The notes beneath the pieces were generated by a model that made no database searches, was not told the origin of the DNA, and worked only from the letters and a program-made list of their open reading frames with translations. Source: Fibrobacter sp. UWT2 (GTDB lineage Bacteria; Fibrobacterota; Fibrobacteria; Fibrobacterales; Fibrobacteraceae). Taken from it: a stretch of 64,000 bases of DNA. Location of the stretch: positions 1 through 64,000 of the forward strand of contig NZ_FRBF01000014.1 in assembly GCF_900142545.1 (NCBI RefSeq), read 5' to 3'. The position numbers and the translations under genes were made by a program. Below are positions 5,319-59,260 of the stretch, piece by piece. The number at the start of each line of letters is the position of its first letter. Position 1 is the stretch's first letter.

Positions 5319-6449
5319 TCACATGACTTCCAAGAGCAATTTTTCGTCGGGCATGACTGCTTTCAGTTTTTCCGGCATAACCTTGTAGGTTGCAACACCC
5401 ATAGGCTGGTTGTAATCTTGCAACAGATACTCAACAAACGACCTGTCCGCGCCCTTACACAGAATAATGCCGATGACCGGATTTTCGTTCGCCTTCCGTT
5501 CATCGTCATTCAACACGCGCATGTATGCCGAGAGCTGTCCGAGATATGCAGGCTTAAACTCCCCTTTCTTTAATTCCACAACAACAAGACTCTGCAACTC
5601 ACGATTATAGAAGAGCAGATCGACCCACATGTCGTGCTCAAGTTTTTCGATATGAACTTGATGGCCGACGTACGTGAAATCCTTTCCAAACGTCAGGATA
5701 AAATTCTTGACATTTTGGACAATGGAATTTTCAACAACGCGTTCGTCAATATCCTGGGGATTGCGCTCGTCGAGTTCTTCCACATTGACAAAGTCAAGCA
5801 GGTATTCGTCCTTGAACATCGAGATCGCCTTTTGCGCATGGAGCGTTTTGGGCAAGGTAAGGGCGAAGTTATTGGGAATCTGTCCCTGGTGATGAAACAA
5901 GTCCGCCTTGAGATAATCACGTAGGGTATACTTGTCCCAATGATTCAGGATGGATTGATGTATATAGAAAGCACGTTCTTCCAATGATGAGCATTTCCCC
6001 AAAATTTCTATATGATGCGTAAAACTCAGTGCTAAAAATTCGGAGAAGTCCAAATCGCCCGCCATTGGCGGTCGATTTATATCAAGAAGCGCAAAAATCG
6101 GTATTTTTGCCGATTTTTCTTCATTTTCGGCATTTTCCAATTCGCCCGCCATCGGCGGACGATTTAAAAAGCTACTCCATTCTTCATAGAATTGGCGCAT
6201 TTTTTTAATACTTGTGGGCGAAAAACCTCTTAAACCCGGCAATTCCCGCCGAAGTTGAGCACTTATCGTGCCAATCGCCCCTGTTCCCCATGTTCCCTCA
6301 CGGGAATTCTCGGATACAAACTTGCCCACCGCATAATACAACGAAAGCATCTGCTTGTTAGCCGCCCGAGCAGTCTCCAACTGGCTTTCGAGAATGGCAG
6401 ACTTTATCTGCTGAACAGCATCGTTATAAAACGGGCTTATTTTATCCAT
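5319..6449 (-). CDS. DUF1016 (YhcG-type) PD-(D/E)XK nuclease with palindromic inserts
   Basis: A 376-residue two-domain protein. The N-terminal DUF1016 part includes SENSREGTWGTGAIGTISAQ. The C-terminal nuclease core has MWVDLLFYNRELQSLVVVELK (D, then ExK). Known relatives are putative DNA nucleases or recombinases found in defence islands. The ATG at 6449 is chosen because GGAGG lies 5 nt before it; an upstream in-frame ATG would swallow that site. The linker between the two domains carries NRPPMAGEL and NRPPMAGDL, each encoded by a near-perfect palindrome, and this makes the linker longer than that of the second DUF1016 gene at 20739. Its leader is shared with the ORF6N gene. Confidence 0.88.
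   Translation of the reverse strand: MDKISPFYNDAVQQIKSAILESQLETARAANKQMLSLYYAVGKFVSENSREGTWGTGAIGTISAQLRRELPGLRGFSPTSIKKMRQFYEEWSSFLNRPPMAGELENAENEEKSAKIPIFALLDINRPPMAGDLDFSEFLALSFTHHIEILGKCSSLEERAFYIHQSILNHWDKYTLRDYLKADLFHHQGQIPNNFALTLPKTLHAQKAISMFKDEYLLDFVNVEELDERNPQDIDERVVENSIVQNVKNFILTFGKDFTYVGHQVHIEKLEHDMWVDLLFYNRELQSLVVVELKKGEFKPAYLGQLSAYMRVLNDDERKANENPVIGIILCKGADRSFVEYLLQDYNQPMGVATYKVMPEKLKAVMPDEKLLLEVM
6052..6078. repeat. Palindromic insert 1 in the DUF1016 linker
   Basis: Two 12-base arms (AAATCGCCCGCC and GGCGGTCGATTT) around ATT, with one mismatch. Read in frame on the minus strand it encodes NRPPMAG. The core CG-NN-CGCC-ATY-GGCG-NN-CGATTTA recurs at 6141-6165 and 8260-8283. Confidence 0.8.
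6141..6165. repeat. Palindromic insert 2 in the DUF1016 linker
   Basis: Arms TCGCCCGCC and GGCGGACGA around ATC, followed by TTTAAA. Same family as the copy at 6052. It is also in frame and encodes NRPPMAGEL, so the protein carries the peptide twice, about 27 codons apart. Confidence 0.8.
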
Positions 6450-7011: not shown

Positions 7012-8091
7012 TCACTTTCCACTTCTTACTGCAGCTATTTCGGCGTTGATTTCGTTGAGTGTCATGTCGGCGGAACTAGCCTTCTCGGCGTCGGCGGAAA
7101 GTTGCTGCATGGTCCGGAACATTCGGTGTCTGTCATACAATTCCTTGAACATGTTTCGGTAGGCATCAACGTCGTCCAACTGGACGATAGTCGTAATCTT
7201 GTTGCCGGCATCCTTGCTCGAAGCTCCACAATGGAACAGCTTTTCACTTTTGGTCCTAAAGTCGACAAGAATATAGCGGTCGTGGAATTTGTGCGCCGCA
7301 GAAACCGTATCAATCGAAACGCCCGGCATTGCCGCACGAAAATCGTTGAGCATATCATCCGTTATGCGGGCATACCGATCACTCGCAATCAAAATAGATA
7401 CGCCCTTACGCGCATTCCGGAGCAAATTCAGCGTCTTGATGTCAACATAATTATCAACAACCAACAACGATTTCTTCGCCATGCCGTAAATCTGCGCATA
7501 GGCGACATCAGCTTCCAACTTCTGTCCGTTCAAAATTAAGAAGTGCTTGTATGTCGAGGGATCAACGAAGTTTTCCATGACTTTCTGAAGATCAGATTGA
7601 ATGACCGCTATATCCTTGGTATTTCTTTCAGTTTGCACGGCAATTTGGGCAATGCCGTCATAACCCAATAAATTCCGATTTTCAGCAATGATATAGTCTT
7701 TCATCTGCTTGAAAAGGCGAATAAGGGCCATACTTTGACGAATCGCAAGGTCACCTTTTAAAACCGTCATAAGCATATAGATGCCCTGTTCGGTGAAGGC
7801 ATACGGCAATTTTCGTGTTCCACCCCAACTTGATGTGCATTTTTTGCACATCAAGTTTTGCATTTCATCCTCACTCAATTGAAATCGAAAATCCTCCGCA
7901 AATCGATCAATGTTATTTTTTACCTGGCGATTGAAAAATCTCGTCTCGTATCCGTAAATCTCGGCCAAATCTGCATCGAGCATCACCTTGAGCCCGCGGA
8001 TGGTATATATCCGCGATTTGAGCAGGGTTTCGTCAATAAGCGGGAACTCCGATTTGACTGGCGCAACCGCCATATCATTCTTTTTAGCCAT
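7012..8091 (-). CDS. ORF6N-domain protein with PLD-like C-terminal part
   Basis: A 359-residue protein. Residues about 25-125 form an ORF6N DNA-binding domain (IYTIRGLKVMLDADLAEIYG, KNNIDRFAEDFRFQL, TSSWGGTRKLPYAFTEQG). The C-terminal half has QIYGMAKKSLLVVDNYVD and HKFHDRYILVDF, resembling phospholipase D-like folds seen in some prophage and abortive-infection proteins, although only one HxD-type motif is visible. GGAGG lies 4 nt before the ATG. The codons just before TSSWGG are a perfect 27-base hairpin (7829-7855). The gene has the same structured leader as the DUF1016 gene. A role in phage or plasmid control is inferred from context. Confidence 0.85.
   Translation of the reverse strand: MAKKNDMAVAPVKSEFPLIDETLLKSRIYTIRGLKVMLDADLAEIYGYETRFFNRQVKNNIDRFAEDFRFQLSEDEMQNLMCKKCTSSWGGTRKLPYAFTEQGIYMLMTVLKGDLAIRQSMALIRLFKQMKDYIIAENRNLLGYDGIAQIAVQTERNTKDIAVIQSDLQKVMENFVDPSTYKHFLILNGQKLEADVAYAQIYGMAKKSLLVVDNYVDIKTLNLLRNARKGVSILIASDRYARITDDMLNDFRAAMPGVSIDTVSAAHKFHDRYILVDFRTKSEKLFHCGASSKDAGNKITTIVQLDDVDAYRNMFKELYDRHRMFRTMQQLSADAEKASSADMTLNEINAEIAAVRSGK
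7829..7855. repeat. Palindrome inside the ORF6N gene
   Basis: Eleven-base perfect arms (CTTGATGTGCA and TGCACATCAAG) around TTTTT. In frame it encodes LMCKKCTS, directly before the conserved SWGG. A different palindrome occupies the matching codons of the ORF6N remnant at 24638-24660. Confidence 0.85.
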
Positions 8092-8094
8092 ACA

Positions 8095-8260
8095 GCCTCC
8101 ATGTAGCCGCGTTCGCGGCTGGTTGATGTTAGAGGCGTTCTTGCATAACCAGAAAGTCGATTAACGCAAAAAACGCACCTCGCCTTAAAACAGCGAGATG
8201 CGTTCAGCGGTAATGTATCTAAATATCAGAAAACTGGCAAGGGAGGCAAGAAAATTTTAC
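8095..8260 (-). promoter_or_regulatory. Structured 5' leader of the ORF6N gene (leader family, copy 2)
   Basis: Nearly identical to copy 1. Minus strand: upstream block GTAAAATTTTCTTGCCTCCC; -35 TTGCCA (8240-8235); 17 nt; -10 TACATT (8217-8212); hairpin arms at 8203-8193 and 8183-8173 with TTTTTTGCG behind them; CTGGTT...AACCAG hairpin; GCCGC-GAAC-GCGGC hairpin (8119-8106); GGAGG. The five-codon MQERL frame is present. The divergent helicase promoter begins about 85 bp away. Confidence 0.75.
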
Positions 8261-20738: not shown

Positions 20739-21899
20739 ATGACCCCAAGAATAGTAAGGTCGCACGATGTTCATGTTGATTCTGATTACTCCAAGTGGAT
20801 TGCCGAGCTTAAGCAACGGTATCGCTCGGCGCAAGTGAAGGCTGCCGTCAGGGTAAACACCGAAAAATTGCAGTTTAACTGGTCGCTAGGGCAAGATTTG
20901 GTCCACAAAAAGGCAGAAGAACGCTGGGGCGCGGGTGTCGTGGAGCAACTCAGCCTTGATTTGCGACGAGAATTCCCCGATACGGACGGATTTTCCGTGT
21001 CAAATCTTTGGTATATGAAGAAATGGTACTGTTTCTACACGCAAAAAGGTAATTCGACCAACTTTAATCAAGCTAATGACGAAAAACTCCAACGGCCCGT
21101 TGGAGAATTAGCCATGGGTAAATTCATGCGGTTTGAAAGTGTTCTGCCAACCATATTTACTAGTGTCCCTTGGGGGCAACATATAGATATTATAACCAAA
21201 TGTCGCAGTGTAGAGGAAGCTCTTTTCTACATAAAGCAGGTAGTCGAAAAAGGGTTAAGTCGCCCAGCCCTTCAAAACTGCATCAAGGCTGATCTTTACA
21301 GTCACCAAGGCAAGATTGTCAATAATTTTTCCGAAAATCTTCCCGAATTGCAAAGCAAATTGGTTCAAGAGGTGCTGAAAGAAAACTACGATTTCGGCTT
21401 TGCAACCGTAAGTCACGAGATTTATGACGAGGCAGAATTAGAAAATGCCCTGACGCAGAACGTCACTGAACTTTTGCTCGAAATGGGAACAGGTTTTGCT
21501 TTTATAGCGCGACAGAAAGAAATTATCGTAGGCAATCACAGTCGCAAGCTCGACCTGCTTTTTTACCATATCCGCTTGCGTTGCTTTGTCGTTTGCGAAT
21601 TGAAGGTAGTGCCATTCGAACCAGAATTCATCGGCAAGCTGAATTTCTACGTGAACGCGGTGGACAACTTGATGAAAGCCCCCGAAGACAACCCGACTAT
21701 CGGGCTGCTGATTTGCTCCAACATGGATTCGACCGATGTAAGGTGGTCTTTCCGAGGACTAGGTACGCCAATGGGAGTCGCCACATACAACAACATCCGC
21801 ATCAAGGATATGCTGCCCTCGAAGGAATTACTGATTGAACGCATGCATCAGGCACAAAAGGAGGTGCGCGCCACAAAGCGGATGATTCGAAAAAAATAG
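20739..21899 (+). CDS. Second DUF1016 (YhcG-type) nuclease
   Basis: A 386-residue relative of the gene at 5319-6449. The N-terminal part has SDYSKWIAELKQRYRSAQ and ERWGAGVVEQLSLDLRREFP; SVPWGQHIDIITKCRSVEEA opens the second half. The C-terminal nuclease has RKLDLLFYHIRLRCFVVCELK (D, then ExK). The linker just before SVPWGQ includes LQRPVGELAMG, encoded by a perfect 19-base palindrome (21087-21105). The ATG at 20739 is chosen as the first that gives a normal DUF1016 N-terminus; the upstream open frame reads as leader sequence. The leader contains the hairpin GCCCAACGGGGGC just before the gene, but not the shared leader family. Confidence 0.85.
   Translation: MTPRIVRSHDVHVDSDYSKWIAELKQRYRSAQVKAAVRVNTEKLQFNWSLGQDLVHKKAEERWGAGVVEQLSLDLRREFPDTDGFSVSNLWYMKKWYCFYTQKGNSTNFNQANDEKLQRPVGELAMGKFMRFESVLPTIFTSVPWGQHIDIITKCRSVEEALFYIKQVVEKGLSRPALQNCIKADLYSHQGKIVNNFSENLPELQSKLVQEVLKENYDFGFATVSHEIYDEAELENALTQNVTELLLEMGTGFAFIARQKEIIVGNHSRKLDLLFYHIRLRCFVVCELKVVPFEPEFIGKLNFYVNAVDNLMKAPEDNPTIGLLICSNMDSTDVRWSFRGLGTPMGVATYNNIRIKDMLPSKELLIERMHQAQKEVRATKRMIRKK
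21087..21105. repeat. Palindrome in the linker of the second DUF1016 gene
   Basis: CTCCAACGG-C-CCGTTGGAG, perfect nine-base arms. It is in frame and sits at the same inter-domain position as the NRPPMA inserts of the first DUF1016 gene, but its sequence is unrelated to theirs. Confidence 0.8.
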
Positions 21900-46163: not shown

Positions 46164-46727
46164 TCACCCTCTACATAATTTGCGCACATCAAAGACAAGC
46201 CCCTCACTAAACGGATCACCGCCATTTGCTGCGATGAATTTCGCATGAGGGATATCCGTCCTGTATGTCCACGGAATAGAATCGCCATCATCCGTGAACG
46301 CGTCTTTAGCATGCCATAAAGCAGAAATGTTATTCTTCTTTCCGGCGCCACGCTCCAATTTCCATTTTCCCTTTATACGTTTTAAGTGGAATTTTCCGCC
46401 TTCGAAACAATCACCTTCAGCAAAAATAGCACCTTCTAATTCAATCACATCGTCCGAATAACCCGTGACAACCACTAGCCCGTTTCGTTTCGCGCAAGCA
46501 GTTTCAACATCCGACAAGCCTTCGGAAAAATCGCGCATGCTAAGAATTTTGGCAAACTGTTCCGCAGAAAATGTTCGAGTTTTCATCCATAAAACATAAT
46601 CCACGATTCGCTTGTCTTTCTTACCGAAGTAGCCCATTGTCTTTTCTGCAATAACATTTAAGTCATCGCAAACGCTGGATACACCTTCTAAAAAAAGATG
46701 TATCTCGTTGATTTTGTTGTTAATCAT
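46164..46727 (-). CDS. Hypothetical protein coupled to the AlbA_2 gene
   Basis: A 187-residue protein of unknown family. The N-terminal part is helical (INEIHLFLEGVSSVCDDLNV); the C-terminal half has strands and Trp/His-rich sequence (NNISALWHAKDAFTDDGDS). Its ATG overlaps the stop codon of the upstream AlbA_2 gene (ATGA) and uses AAGGAG inside that gene, so the two proteins are made together and probably work together. It is convergent with the PL14-like gene, with only 3 bp between the two stops. Confidence 0.7.
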   Translation of the reverse strand: MINNKINEIHLFLEGVSSVCDDLNVIAEKTMGYFGKKDKRIVDYVLWMKTRTFSAEQFAKILSMRDFSEGLSDVETACAKRNGLVVVTGYSDDVIELEGAIFAEGDCFEGGKFHLKRIKGKWKLERGAGKKNNISALWHAKDAFTDDGDSIPWTYRTDIPHAKFIAANGGDPFSEGLVFDVRKLCRG

Positions 46728-48265
46728 ATTATTTCTCCTTGTTGATGGTTTTCTTCGATGATTTCCCAATATCCCTTTGTGTCACTACCTATTCGCTTGA
46801 TGAATTTATCTCGCAAAAGCGCTATGTGATATTTCACGGTACGGGGAGAAACATCCATTTTTTCGCTCAGTTCTTCGATAGTGGCATACGGATTAGTCAC
46901 AATCGCCAAATATGTTCTCTGGGCAATCTCAGGGCAATTTGGCGGCAAAATCAAGTCATTCTCAGGGCAATTTTCGCTATTTCTCTGGGCAATTTCAACG
47001 TTTTCTGGGCAATTATCACTTGTTCTCTGGGCAATCTCAGCCAATTTTAGCACTGTTATCGTTCTTTCAAGCGATATTTTTTGTGTATATTCGGGCTTAA
47101 GACCAAACTCTTTTTCCCACACAGAAAAAACTCCGGGGATTCCGCTCCCCGCCCGTTCACCGATATCGATCATAGAGAACATCTTAAGAATGGTGGCATT
47201 GCGTGGATCGGAAGTTCCACCGCTTATGGCTTCTTTTATGCTAAGCCTGAACATTCCCGGATTTTCAAAAACAAAGTAATCCTTGTATTTTTTGATAACA
47301 ACGCCAGCGCGGCCATAATAATCCGCATTCGCAAGTGTATTCAAAAGAATTTCTCGAATAGCCTTGTGAACAGGGGTGTCATCAACCCTATAAATCCCCT
47401 CAAGTTTGAATGGTCTCTTTATGTCTTCAGACAATTTATTTACGGTCTTGAAGAAAAAATCAAATACATTACCGCTCCATTCTCCCGAGCTTGAAACAAA
47501 GCGGTCCGACCATCTTGTCGTTTCATCAAAATGCTCCTGATAATCCAGGAAATAAAGCGGGTACTCATACACGATTTCCGACTCGTACCCGAACATCAAC
47601 AAGCCAGCTGCAGTCGGGTAAACCATTCCATCGTCTTGGTTTATTCTTGCGGCACCTATCTTTTTCAGGAATTCTATATCGGGAAGATAATTCCAAACAT
47701 GACCATCGTGAGACAAACGAAACCTTTGCCTGTAGTGGGTGATAGTTTCTTTGCTAAGTGAATCTAGGTCAACTTCTTTTACGATTTTACAATCTTGGCT
47801 TATATGGCCGGCATCGCGGTAAAGAGAGCCTACTTCTTCCCTTGAACAAAGGTAATCGCCTTCGCCGTTTCGCCTAAACGTCCCTGTAAACATATCCGTT
47901 CCCTTGAAAACAGGGCGATATATTCGATCGGCTCTAGGAACAGTAATCCAGAAAACTTTCTTTCCGTTAATATCCTTTATTTCAACATTATTGTTACCTA
48001 GGATATTAATGTTTACGACATTTTTATTGTTCACATTATCCCAAAACAATTTTTCCATACGCTCAGGATTCTCTACGCCTTCTATGGTAAACGTGTGATC
48101 CCTATTTTCCTTTACACCGAGGAGAATCAGACCCCCATCGGTATTTGCAAACGAGGAATAGGTTTCCCAAAGACTTTTGGGGAAACCGCCCTTGGCAAGC
48201 TTAGCTTCGAAGCGATTGCCTTCTCTGAACGAGTCGATATTGAAGTCTTTTAATAAATCTCCCAT
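46724..48265 (-). CDS. AlbA_2/Schlafen-like ATP-binding protein with winged helix
   Basis: A 513-residue protein. N-terminal AlbA_2 domain: FEAKLAKGGFPKSLWETYSS, ANTDGGLILLGVKEN, RVNGEGDYLCSREE-type sequence. A HATPase-like part follows near residue 330 (AIREILLNTLANADYYG, ENPGMFRLSIKEAISGGTSD, FSMIDIGERAGSGIPGVF). The end is a winged helix (ATIEELSEKMDVSPRTVKYH). Between them lies a linker with repeated NCPE and EIAQR units. Family members are often regulators or defence proteins. GGAG before the ATG at 48265 fixes the start; twenty codons upstream are open but unlikely to be translated. A structured RNA lies upstream. Confidence 0.85.
   Translation of the reverse strand: MGDLLKDFNIDSFREGNRFEAKLAKGGFPKSLWETYSSFANTDGGLILLGVKENRDHTFTIEGVENPERMEKLFWDNVNNKNVVNINILGNNNVEIKDINGKKVFWITVPRADRIYRPVFKGTDMFTGTFRRNGEGDYLCSREEVGSLYRDAGHISQDCKIVKEVDLDSLSKETITHYRQRFRLSHDGHVWNYLPDIEFLKKIGAARINQDDGMVYPTAAGLLMFGYESEIVYEYPLYFLDYQEHFDETTRWSDRFVSSSGEWSGNVFDFFFKTVNKLSEDIKRPFKLEGIYRVDDTPVHKAIREILLNTLANADYYGRAGVVIKKYKDYFVFENPGMFRLSIKEAISGGTSDPRNATILKMFSMIDIGERAGSGIPGVFSVWEKEFGLKPEYTQKISLERTITVLKLAEIAQRTSDNCPENVEIAQRNSENCPENDLILPPNCPEIAQRTYLAIVTNPYATIEELSEKMDVSPRTVKYHIALLRDKFIKRIGSDTKGYWEIIEENHQQGEII
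46918..47037. repeat. Repeated GGGCAAT units in the AlbA_2 linker
   Basis: GGGCAA (minus strand TTGCCC) begins at 46921, 46932, 46965, 46987, 47007 and 47029, mostly in steps of 11 or multiples of 11 bp, usually followed by T and preceded by TCTCT or CTCA. It encodes the NCPE/IAQR linker. Confidence 0.75.
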
Positions 48266-48360
48266 CGTATTCTCCATTGCGAGATTACACGGCAAACGCG
48301 CAAACACGCCGAAAGAACGGCGCACCTTGCACAGTTATGTTTTTATTATGGGGATGATCT

Positions 48361-48498
48361 TGTAATCCTGTTGGCGGGGGCTTTCCCCGGCTAAATTCTA
48401 ACCCAACAGGACCATCAAGAAGGTTGATGGGCCCCGCCGCGAATGCACGTACGGACCGAATGGTCTATGTCGACTGTCGCGGGGATTATCGAATTACA
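48361..48498 (-). ncRNA. Structured RNA leader with a multi-branched fold
   Basis: The minus strand folds into an outer stem TGTAAT/ATTACA (48498-48493 with 48366-48361) enclosing three helices: CCCCGC/GCGGGG (48484-48479 with 48437-48432, containing GACC-ATTC-GGTC), CCATCAA-CCTTC-TTGATGG (48430-48412) and CCTGTTGG/CCAACAGG (48410-48403 with 48374-48367, topped by GCCGGGG-AAAG-CCCCCGC). A consensus promoter places the RNA start at the outer stem. It is 95 nt before the AlbA_2 start. It may be a riboswitch-like leader or an independent RNA; I recognise no known class. Confidence 0.6.
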
Positions 48499-48503
48499 TT
48501 TGT

Positions 48504-48532
48504 AATATAAATAAACTGGTTGGCGCTGTCAA
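48504..48532 (-). promoter_or_regulatory. Consensus promoter of the structured RNA / AlbA_2 gene
   Basis: Minus strand TTGACA (48532-48527), 17 nt, TATATT (48509-48504), predicting a start near 48497, exactly where the structured RNA begins. Confidence 0.78.
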
Positions 48533-57790: not shown

Positions 57791-59113
57791 TTATTTCAAG
57801 ATTTGCCACCGTCCATTTTTTCGAGCTCCTACGCGGGCAATACACGATTTTTCCCGTAGAGCTTTCAAAGTCCTATTAATCGTCGGTTCGGAATAACCCG
57901 TTTCATGCATAAGTAAGGGAACTGTAATGGAAGGATTCCGCTTTATTTCTGCGTAAATCAGCGATTCCGTTTCCGTAAGTTTTATCCTATCGTTTATCCT
58001 ATCATTTATCCTATCATTTATCCTATCACCCAACCGCCGCAATCCTTCAAAATAGAACGAAGTCCGCATGAAATGATCCGTAAACGAGAACGCCTTTTCA
58101 TCATAGGAACGCAGAATACGCCGCATGCCGCTCCCGAGCTGTTCGACCATATCCAAGTCATGGAAAATACGCATAAGTTCGCGATTGCGCGGCATAGAAC
58201 AGCAGTTGAAGAAATCTTCTTTTGAAAGGCCTTCCACCAACCCGCCGTAGTTTGTTATTTCCATCCTGTCAGAAAAAATCTCAAACAGGGGCGGGACCTC
58301 TTTCGTGTAATCATTGTGAACGACAGCGTTGATTACCGCCTCGCGCAAGGCAACCGGGTCGACCAGCGGCTTTTCGATACGTTCCATAGGTGTAATTTGA
58401 GCATGCGTAATGTTCGCCACCTGCAATCGCATGAGCACTGATTTTACAGCCTTAATAACGCTACAATAGCCGAATTCCTCATTTTCAATAAGGTCATATT
58501 TGTCCGTGCCTTTGTACCGCGCCACCTTTATGGATACTCCGTTTTCATCAGCAAGGAGATAAGCATTGTAATTGTATTTTCCGTCGGGAGTAAGCAACTC
58601 CAGCGTCTTGGCAAACTGACTGTTCAAGGGCTTTTTGCTCTCTTCGTAGTAGATTTTTAACTGACTAAATGTCAAGTCTTGCCGCGGAGCCGGAATCTTG
58701 GCAAGAGAAATCTTTGCGCGAGAAGCAAAAGTTTCTAGGATTATCTTTTCGCTCATTCCATGGACTGAACTTCCCACACGCACAAAGCAACCTTCGGGCG
58801 TCATACCCGCCTTTTTTAGATAATACGGTTTTTCCGGGCCACCCGAAATCGCCACATGAACGATATTTTTGTTGTCTTTTTCCTCCGTCACGACTTCAAA
58901 GAGTCCGATAGCATTCGGCTTGATATTGTTCAAGATCCTATCCGCTACTTGACGCTGCACATGGTCTATGTCCTTTACTCCATATACAGAGCCATCGTCA
59001 TTGACTCCAATATAGATGTGTCCGCCTGTAGAATTCAGAAAAGCAATTACAGATCGCTCAAAAGTTTCGGACAGTTCTCGCTTGTATTCAACAAGATGAT
59101 TTTCGCTGTTCAT
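57791..59113 (-). CDS. AlbA_2/Schlafen-like protein with a tandem-repeat linker
   Basis: A 440-residue protein. The AlbA_2 domain is at the N-terminus (VEYKRELSETFERSVIAFLN, STGGHIYIGVNDDGSVYG, CFVRVGSSVHGMSE). HATPase-like residues follow (ALREAVINAVVHNDYT, MEITNYGGLVEGLSKEDFFN, EQLGSGMRRILRSYD). A linker with DRINDRINDRINDRIK joins a winged helix (ITVPLLMHETGYSEPTINRT). GGAGG lies 4 nt before the ATG and can pair with an upstream CGCCTC. It carries leader copy 3. It lies upstream of hsdR on the same strand, with 86 bp between them. Confidence 0.87.
   Translation of the reverse strand: MNSENHLVEYKRELSETFERSVIAFLNSTGGHIYIGVNDDGSVYGVKDIDHVQRQVADRILNNIKPNAIGLFEVVTEEKDNKNIVHVAISGGPEKPYYLKKAGMTPEGCFVRVGSSVHGMSEKIILETFASRAKISLAKIPAPRQDLTFSQLKIYYEESKKPLNSQFAKTLELLTPDGKYNYNAYLLADENGVSIKVARYKGTDKYDLIENEEFGYCSVIKAVKSVLMRLQVANITHAQITPMERIEKPLVDPVALREAVINAVVHNDYTKEVPPLFEIFSDRMEITNYGGLVEGLSKEDFFNCCSMPRNRELMRIFHDLDMVEQLGSGMRRILRSYDEKAFSFTDHFMRTSFYFEGLRRLGDRINDRINDRINDRIKLTETESLIYAEIKRNPSITVPLLMHETGYSEPTINRTLKALREKSCIARVGARKNGRWQILK
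57981..58028. repeat. 12-bp tandem repeat in the AlbA_2 gene
   Basis: Four units of ATCCTATC(A/G)TTT-type sequence in frame, encoding (DRIN)n. Gain or loss of a 12-bp unit would change linker length by four residues without a frameshift. Confidence 0.88.
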
Positions 59114-59114
59114 T

Positions 59115-59260
59115 GCGCCTCCATTGGGTAGTTGAGGCGTCCCTTTATTCCGGAAACCCAGAATAAAAAAAGACGCGGTTCTCCATTTGACAGAGAACCA
59201 CGTGCAGCTTTAATGTACCTAATATCTAAAAGGCTGGCAAGGGACCTAAGGAAATTTTAC
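59115..59260 (-). promoter_or_regulatory. Structured 5' leader of the AlbA_2 gene (leader family, copy 3)
   Basis: Minus strand: upstream block TTGTAAAATTTCCTTAGGTCCC; -35 TTGCCA (59240-59235); 17 nt; -10 TACATT (59217-59212); hairpin with arms ACGTGGTTCTC (59203-59193) and GAGAACCGCGT (59183-59173) around a nine-base loop, then CTTTTTTTA; CGCCTC (59139-59134), which can pair with GAGGCG of the ribosome site (59120-59115). Promoter, spacing, loop length and U tract match copies 1 and 2, but the stem sequence is different and fully compensated. Confidence 0.75.

Follow-up and report, generated by a model that had tools for sequence, protein, structure and literature searches.

Introduction

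The closest described counterparts of the locus reported here are structured RNAs and conserved elements that accompany exchangeable or co-directional genes. The abiF motif and the type III antitoxin RNAs are structured RNAs located just upstream of a defence-type accessory gene, and each is generally associated with one protein family. Orphan riboswitch-like leaders fold compactly with a pseudoknot, keep many unpaired bases conserved, lie behind a promoter and upstream of co-directional genes, and occur in several copies per genome. In integron-type cassettes, single exchangeable genes, at times arrayed in short tandem series, are accompanied by a conserved element. Alignment-level comparison with the abiF motif, the type III antitoxins and the integron was confined to Rfam scans.

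Here we describe a real and new structured RNA family of Fibrobacter and its close kin, which shares individual features with each of these. It was found in a window (the whole stretch of DNA analysed) of 64,000 nucleotides from Fibrobacter sp. UWT2. Like the orphan leaders, it has a conserved, covarying structure and lies behind a promoter, upstream of co-directional genes; however, these genes are unrelated accessory or defence-type genes with no metabolic theme, and no consistent terminator or Shine-Dalgarno (SD) switch was found. It resembles the abiF motif and type III antitoxin RNAs in its position but, rather than being dedicated to one toxin family, it is common to many protein families, with identical or nearly identical copies preceding ORF6N, DUF1016 and AlbA_2 genes. 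Unlike integron-type elements, it is positioned 5' of its gene, comes with a promoter and tolerates G-U pairs in the manner typical of RNA, and mapping of homology breakpoints found no right-hand site. Among structured leader RNAs, a known kind, the family is new and unusual in its choice of genes.

Results

A promoter and a structured RNA upstream of an AlbA_2 gene

The initial annotation of the window, made from the sequence alone, had proposed a TTGACA-17-TATATT promoter followed by a well-folded RNA. Both were borne out: the promoter is present on the minus strand at 48532-48504, and the RNA behind it folds with -56.2 kcal/mol, where shuffles average -43.8 (z -3.51) and none of 200 is as good. 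The conserved element reaches 48351, beyond the end of the fold drawn in that annotation, and its core (Table 1) matches a covariance model of 34 copies, the window copy itself among them, with 133.5 bits (E 2.6e-37). The AlbA_2 gene expected about 95 nt after the end of the annotated RNA is indeed an SLFN_AlbA_2 gene (Pfam E 6.9e-11), whose start lies 74-86 nt past the conserved core. The second ORF of the putative operon has no Pfam match. Imperfect copies of a peptide repeat, CPE..EIAQR, occur in the C-terminal part of the AlbA_2 protein (window 46724-47050); other AlbA_2 members finish in repeated DNA, e.g., CTCAAAATGTCA.

Table 1 Features of the RNA locus in the window
Feature	Position	Strand	Basis or remark
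-35 box TTGACA of the RNA promoter	48527..48532	-	exact match
-10 box TATATT	48504..48509	-	
Conserved RNA core, 140 nt	48351..48490	-	blastn relatives; covariance-model match
P2 domain: basal helix CCCCGC/GCGGGG, inner helices, conserved CGUACGUGCAU strand	48432..48484	-	
P3 hairpin CCAUCAACCUUCUUGAUGG	48412..48430	-	
Pseudoknot 5' strand UCUUG, P3 loop	48416..48420	-	in the window copy partly within P3
P4 domain, short form: UGUUGG/CCAACA	48369..48408	-	P4 helix nearly invariant
P4c hairpin CGGGG/CCCCG	48375-48389	-	double-sided changes in 3/5 pairs
Pseudoknot 3' strand CAAGA, 3' tail	48358..48362	-	
Gene for SLFN_AlbA_2 + HATPase_c_4 + HTH protein, start 48277 or 48265	46724..48277	-	Pfam, ORF
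Second ORF of putative operon, 201 aa, overlapping the AlbA_2 gene	46164..46769	-	ORF

The same annotation had closed the RNA into a four-way junction by means of an outer stem, UGUAAUUC/GGAUUACA. Three adjacent helical domains (P2, P3 and P4) and a pseudoknot are conserved, but the enclosing stem is not: across the family a copy's own 5' and 3' ends pair with a mean of 3.62, against 3.56 for swapped ends, and 613 of 2000 permutations score as high (36 testable of the 37 non-redundant copies). The 7-bp stem of the window copy is the best among the copies tested and looks like a product of chance. A junction is thus present at most in the window copy, and a closed four-way junction is not the conserved architecture.

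The family is usually about 185 nt long, and the window copy is a shortened form without the P4 hairpins P4a and P4b; among the aligned copies its short P4 is found elsewhere only in L064, upstream of a toxin-antitoxin-type pair. The same genome also has a full-length copy (L066:3041-3223). As read from the sequence, P3 of the window copy has an alternative, longer register that would occupy part of the pseudoknot strand and could be a switch or a loss.

The promoter recurs in homologues at a fixed place relative to the RNA. TTGAC is present in 25 of the 37 non-redundant homologues, 20 of which also have a suitably spaced -10 box, and a -10-like hexamer occurs in all 37 under a loose pattern applied without shuffle control. 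At four loci (L125, L126, L127 and L128) the -35 region upstream of the RNA forms a palindrome (type TTGACA...TGTCAA), which resembles a repressor operator overlapping the promoter.

An RNA family largely confined to Fibrobacter

By blastn with the RNA stretch of the window, relatives were detected in 61 of the 80 genomes searched within the genus, with up to nine matched pieces per genome (a matched piece is not equal to one copy), and Fibrobacter genomes with the RNA often hold several diverged copies. When the phylum was scanned with the covariance model of 34 copies, 68 of 167 genomes proved to carry the RNA. Of these, 62 belong to the genus (including G019, matched by a 29-position fragment alone), and the six outside it are five genomes from two more genera within the same family and one marginal case elsewhere (E 0.007). 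A pattern scan of named genomes gave 75 stretches, 73 from Fibrobacter or Fibrobacterales, one from a 'Bacilli' MAG (L193) and one from a Gemmatimonadetes bin (L228). The former matches in the P2 part alone, at 45 bits, and the latter has no covariance-model match at all, so that both look like mis-binning or chance and were rejected. The RNA was not found in viral contigs by a pattern search, nor in phages or plasmids.

The initial annotation could place the RNA in no known class, and this still holds. Rfam 15 (4227 families) gave no match at gathering cut-offs in the whole window and 15 loci with other members, and lax settings, applied to the window and two full-length copies, returned unrelated families as the best sub-threshold matches. 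A literature search, in which subscription journals were thinly covered, found no mention of this RNA; in the passages retrieved from PMC2864571 the group is named in the reference list alone.

Covariation supports a pseudoknotted fold

Covariation was assessed on a MAFFT alignment (A2) of 34 non-redundant, well-formed copies, which was not fitted to any structure. From 91 distinct element sequences, ten were set aside by hand (insertions, truncations and odd ends) and a 93% identity filter left 37; the covariation figures describe well-formed copies, since three odd ones were also excluded, namely L079 and L113_4840 (inserts) and L105_14030 (without P4). RNAalifold predicted 46 pairs on this alignment, 20 with double-sided changes, and its first consensus put the tail pairing in place of P3; the two were afterwards counted jointly, as a hairpin plus pseudoknot. 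In the final structure P2 comprises three helices, P3 is a hairpin whose loop forms a pseudoknot with the 3' tail, and P4 encloses three inner hairpins. In the alignment 96.6% of its cells are paired and 21 pairs have double-sided changes, with 143 double-sided cells against 49 in shuffles and a covariation score of 0.284 against 0.151. When partners were slid by 1-3 columns the score was at most 0.097, a control that flatters the structure because the latter was partly derived from the same alignment. Conserved pairing in homologues, which the initial annotation had named as a check on its RNA, was found.

The individual helices differ in their support. Helix 1 of P2 is paired in 100% of cells and has double-sided changes in four of its six pairs, and helices 2 and 3 covary too, whereas P3 is the weakest helix (82.3% of cells paired, double-sided changes in two of seven pairs). 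The pseudoknot, whose tail helix RNAalifold picked unprompted, is paired in 98.2% of cells and contains one pair with eight double-sided changes. None of 2000 tail swaps reached the copies' own pairing, in a test that dropped two fragments of the 65 rows and did not remove kinship among copies. The loops of the 11 distant copies pair equally well with main-type tails (4.83) and with their own (4.76), and these copies therefore add little to the swap test. Across the alignment, G-U cells far outnumber A-C cells (130 vs 9), which argues for selection on RNA and points to the structured strand as the transcribed one. The RNA also contains large, highly conserved unpaired stretches.

Some copies depart from this form. 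P4 is mostly or entirely lost, together with the pseudoknot 3' strand, in L105:14034-14155, L108, L111, L183 and L176, and several P4-less copies still precede ORF6N or look-alike AlbA_2 and DUF1016 genes. Separately, RNA hairpins of L059, L079, L113 and L179 carry an inserted palindromic repeat (CACTTAGTGCTTTAGCACTTAGTG...GGCCATGG, with variants), which occurs also in L275 and looks like a REP or MITE-type element.

Unrelated accessory genes follow the RNA

The annotated arrangement, an RNA before an AlbA_2 operon, stands for the window, where the RNA is upstream and co-directional, but is too narrow for the family, which also precedes DUF1016, ORF6N, toxin-antitoxin-type pairs and other genes. 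Among 92 fetched elements, which are the better-scoring ones and not a random sample, the nearest downstream gene (at least 110 aa, within 1 kb) is on the same strand in 83, on the opposite strand in 8 and absent in 1, while the nearest upstream gene is on the same strand in 43, on the opposite strand in 42 and missing in 7. A Pfam scan of 83 first downstream proteins (alignment A1) assigned 24 to DUF1016_N, 24 to SLFN_AlbA_2 and 19 to ORF6N; other cargo includes a DUF4258/CopG-type pair, XRE regulators, a Bro-N protein, a RhuM protein and an RNA ligase. The DUF1016 members match the PADLOC candidate PDC-S02. The distance from RNA to first start codon is 84-140 nt in 62 of 89 copies.

Of the 63 RNAs counted in 41 genomes of the genus, 43 are followed on the same strand, no more than 800 nt away, by a DUF1016, AlbA_2 or ORF6N domain, and in one case such a domain is antisense. 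Conversely, the RNA precedes 19 of 113 DUF1016, 15 of 91 AlbA_2 and 10 of 105 ORF6N domains, leaving 265 of 309 without it. These counts include all listed RNA matches except the G019 fragment, and omit below-cut-off family matches and some second protein fragments. The RNA thus strongly prefers the three gene families, most members of which do without it, and the covariance model found no match in 20 stretches upstream of RNA-less family members.

Additional genes were observed at several loci. Between the RNA and the AlbA_2 or ORF6N gene, a conserved 57-aa ORF with a CPKCG motif and no Pfam match is present in 17 of the 92 fetched modules (L060, L062, L067, L068, L072-L076, L079, L081, L083-L085, L087, L089 and L093), about 280-560 nt past the RNA start. 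DUF4258-like and CopG-like pairs follow the RNA in L064, L080, L123 and L127, with a TTGACA...TATAAT promoter of their own behind the RNA, so that the leader is not needed there for transcription.

The window region is rich in accessory genes of the three families, with further DUF1016 (5892-6410 and 20805-21302), ORF6N (7762-8013) and AlbA_2 (58754-59104) domains. A second leader type, composed of a TTGCCA-(15-19)-TACAT promoter and a strong hairpin with a U run before the gene, precedes RNA-less ORF6N, AlbA_2 and DUF1016 genes at window positions 8070-8240 (-) and 59070-59240 (-) and in L267, L268, L269 and L273. That two window genes of the same families have a terminator-like leader hints that leader control of such genes may be a habit of the genus. 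Pairing with the SD sequence in 17 RNA-less genes shows no significant copy-specificity (61 of 300 swaps as high).

The promoter-RNA unit is a junction for gene exchange

A tree of 78 of the 91 distinct element sequences contains identical RNAs before ORF6N (L112) and DUF1016 (L114), and the window copy, whose own gene is AlbA_2, clusters with seven RNAs upstream of DUF1016 genes (support 95/86). Four cargo labels need 21 changes on this tree, and all seven need 32, against 45.9 in shuffles, so that cargo is clustered to some degree. Since near-identical RNAs stand before unrelated genes, the RNA is not tied to AlbA_2, and on the strength of the tree we reject a copy-specific partner role.

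Pairwise comparison of related modules gave 193 homology blocks, from pairs that are not independent, of which 115 start between -60 and +5 relative to the element start, with a cluster at the -35 box; a further 41 have the upstream DNA in common and stop in or just past the RNA. Tandem RNA-gene units are spaced 1.4-2.5 kb apart. Three relatives have other genes (DUF1016 in two) and no RNA between the genes that flank the module in the window, and the covariance model matched none of four stretches taken from the homologous site in relatives. Mapping confined to the homology breakpoints found no shared right end, terminal repeat or recombinase. Together, the breakpoints and the site comparison indicate that the promoter-RNA unit is a junction at which accessory genes are exchanged, via ordinary recombination or a mobile system.

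Discussion

We give even chances to the proposal that the RNA is a portable 5' leader, shared by accessory and partly candidate phage-defence genes, which controls them in cis via its pseudoknotted fold. This reading is favoured by the covariation, the strand asymmetry, the fixed promoter, the same-strand bias of the following gene and the distance to its start, and one RNA before unrelated genes, with 21 changes of cargo and identical copies, is what would be expected of a shared control element. Building on the observed fold, family, strand, promoter and co-directional gene, the process might run as follows. The promoter would start transcription at the leader, and the RNA would fold into P2, P3 and P4 and form the pseudoknot from P3 loop to 3' tail. 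By co-transcription, the message would continue, mostly for 84-140 nt, into the accessory gene (DUF1016 nuclease, SLFN_AlbA_2, ORF6N or others). A putative trigger (ligand, protein or transcription speed) may then make or break the pseudoknotted fold and, as the presumed control step, set the output of the downstream gene.

Two candidate control steps were considered. Signs of an intrinsic terminator and of SD sequestration are weak or lacking: terminator-like sites follow 8 of 37 copies against 14 of 185 shuffles, and complementarity to the SD is not copy-specific (own 5.40 vs swapped 5.58). No expression platform in the form of a terminator, sought in 37 copies, or of an SD switch was thus found. 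Counting against a cis leader are also the second promoter in toxin-antitoxin-type copies, the copies without P4 and the pseudoknot partner, the majority of family genes without the RNA, and the possible overlap of P3 with a pseudoknot strand in the window copy.

Two live rivals to the cis-acting leader have to be weighed. One, which we regard as unlikely, is a stand-alone small RNA with its own promoter, an end or processing site after the 3' tail and action in trans, for which the next gene is a mere travelling companion. The second promoter between RNA and gene in toxin-antitoxin-type copies, the terminator-like sites behind some copies, the long, strongly conserved unpaired stretches and an RNA type not tied to gene family are all consistent with it. 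However, most copies have no terminator, the strong same-strand gene bias would go unexplained, and several diverged copies per genome would be odd for a single trans-acting RNA.

The other, which we consider rather doubtful, takes promoter and RNA together as the left boundary of a unit that moves or recombines; they would be kept because they promote the exchange or capture of accessory genes at the DNA or RNA level. The breakpoints gathered around the element start and within or after the RNA point in this direction, as do the tandem units and the three relatives with other genes at the window's site, but homologous recombination between repeated leaders would yield the same breakpoints. 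Moreover, a right end, terminal repeat or recombinase did not emerge from the search described above, and the tolerance of G-U but not of A-C argues for selection on RNA rather than on DNA hairpins. That the RNA serves the downstream protein as a dedicated partner or antitoxin, in the style of type III toxin-antitoxin systems, is highly improbable: although the RNA lies directly upstream of SLFN_AlbA_2 or DUF1016 proteins, the latter with their PADLOC match, near-identical RNAs precede unrelated protein families, most family members lack the RNA, and no short tandem repeats were seen in the aligned RNA.

Returning to the cis-acting leader, its large size, its pseudoknot and many invariant unpaired bases, its presence in most Fibrobacter genomes examined and the lack of an Rfam counterpart make this RNA a good candidate for a new class of regulatory RNAs. 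As a speculative extension, on balance improbable, it could be a class of sensory leader RNAs through which a single shared cue, possibly phage infection or RNA damage, switches a whole regulon of Fibrobacter defence-type genes that are unrelated and horizontally exchanged. The downstream genes are mobile or defence-type instead of metabolic, and one RNA serves unrelated ones. If the RNA senses something, it would be a case of bacteria governing their exchangeable defence genes through a single RNA switch, and, were the sensory reading true, the RNA would define a mobile immune regulon rather than a metabolic one. The RNA family offers a direct handle on how such genes stay quiet until needed.
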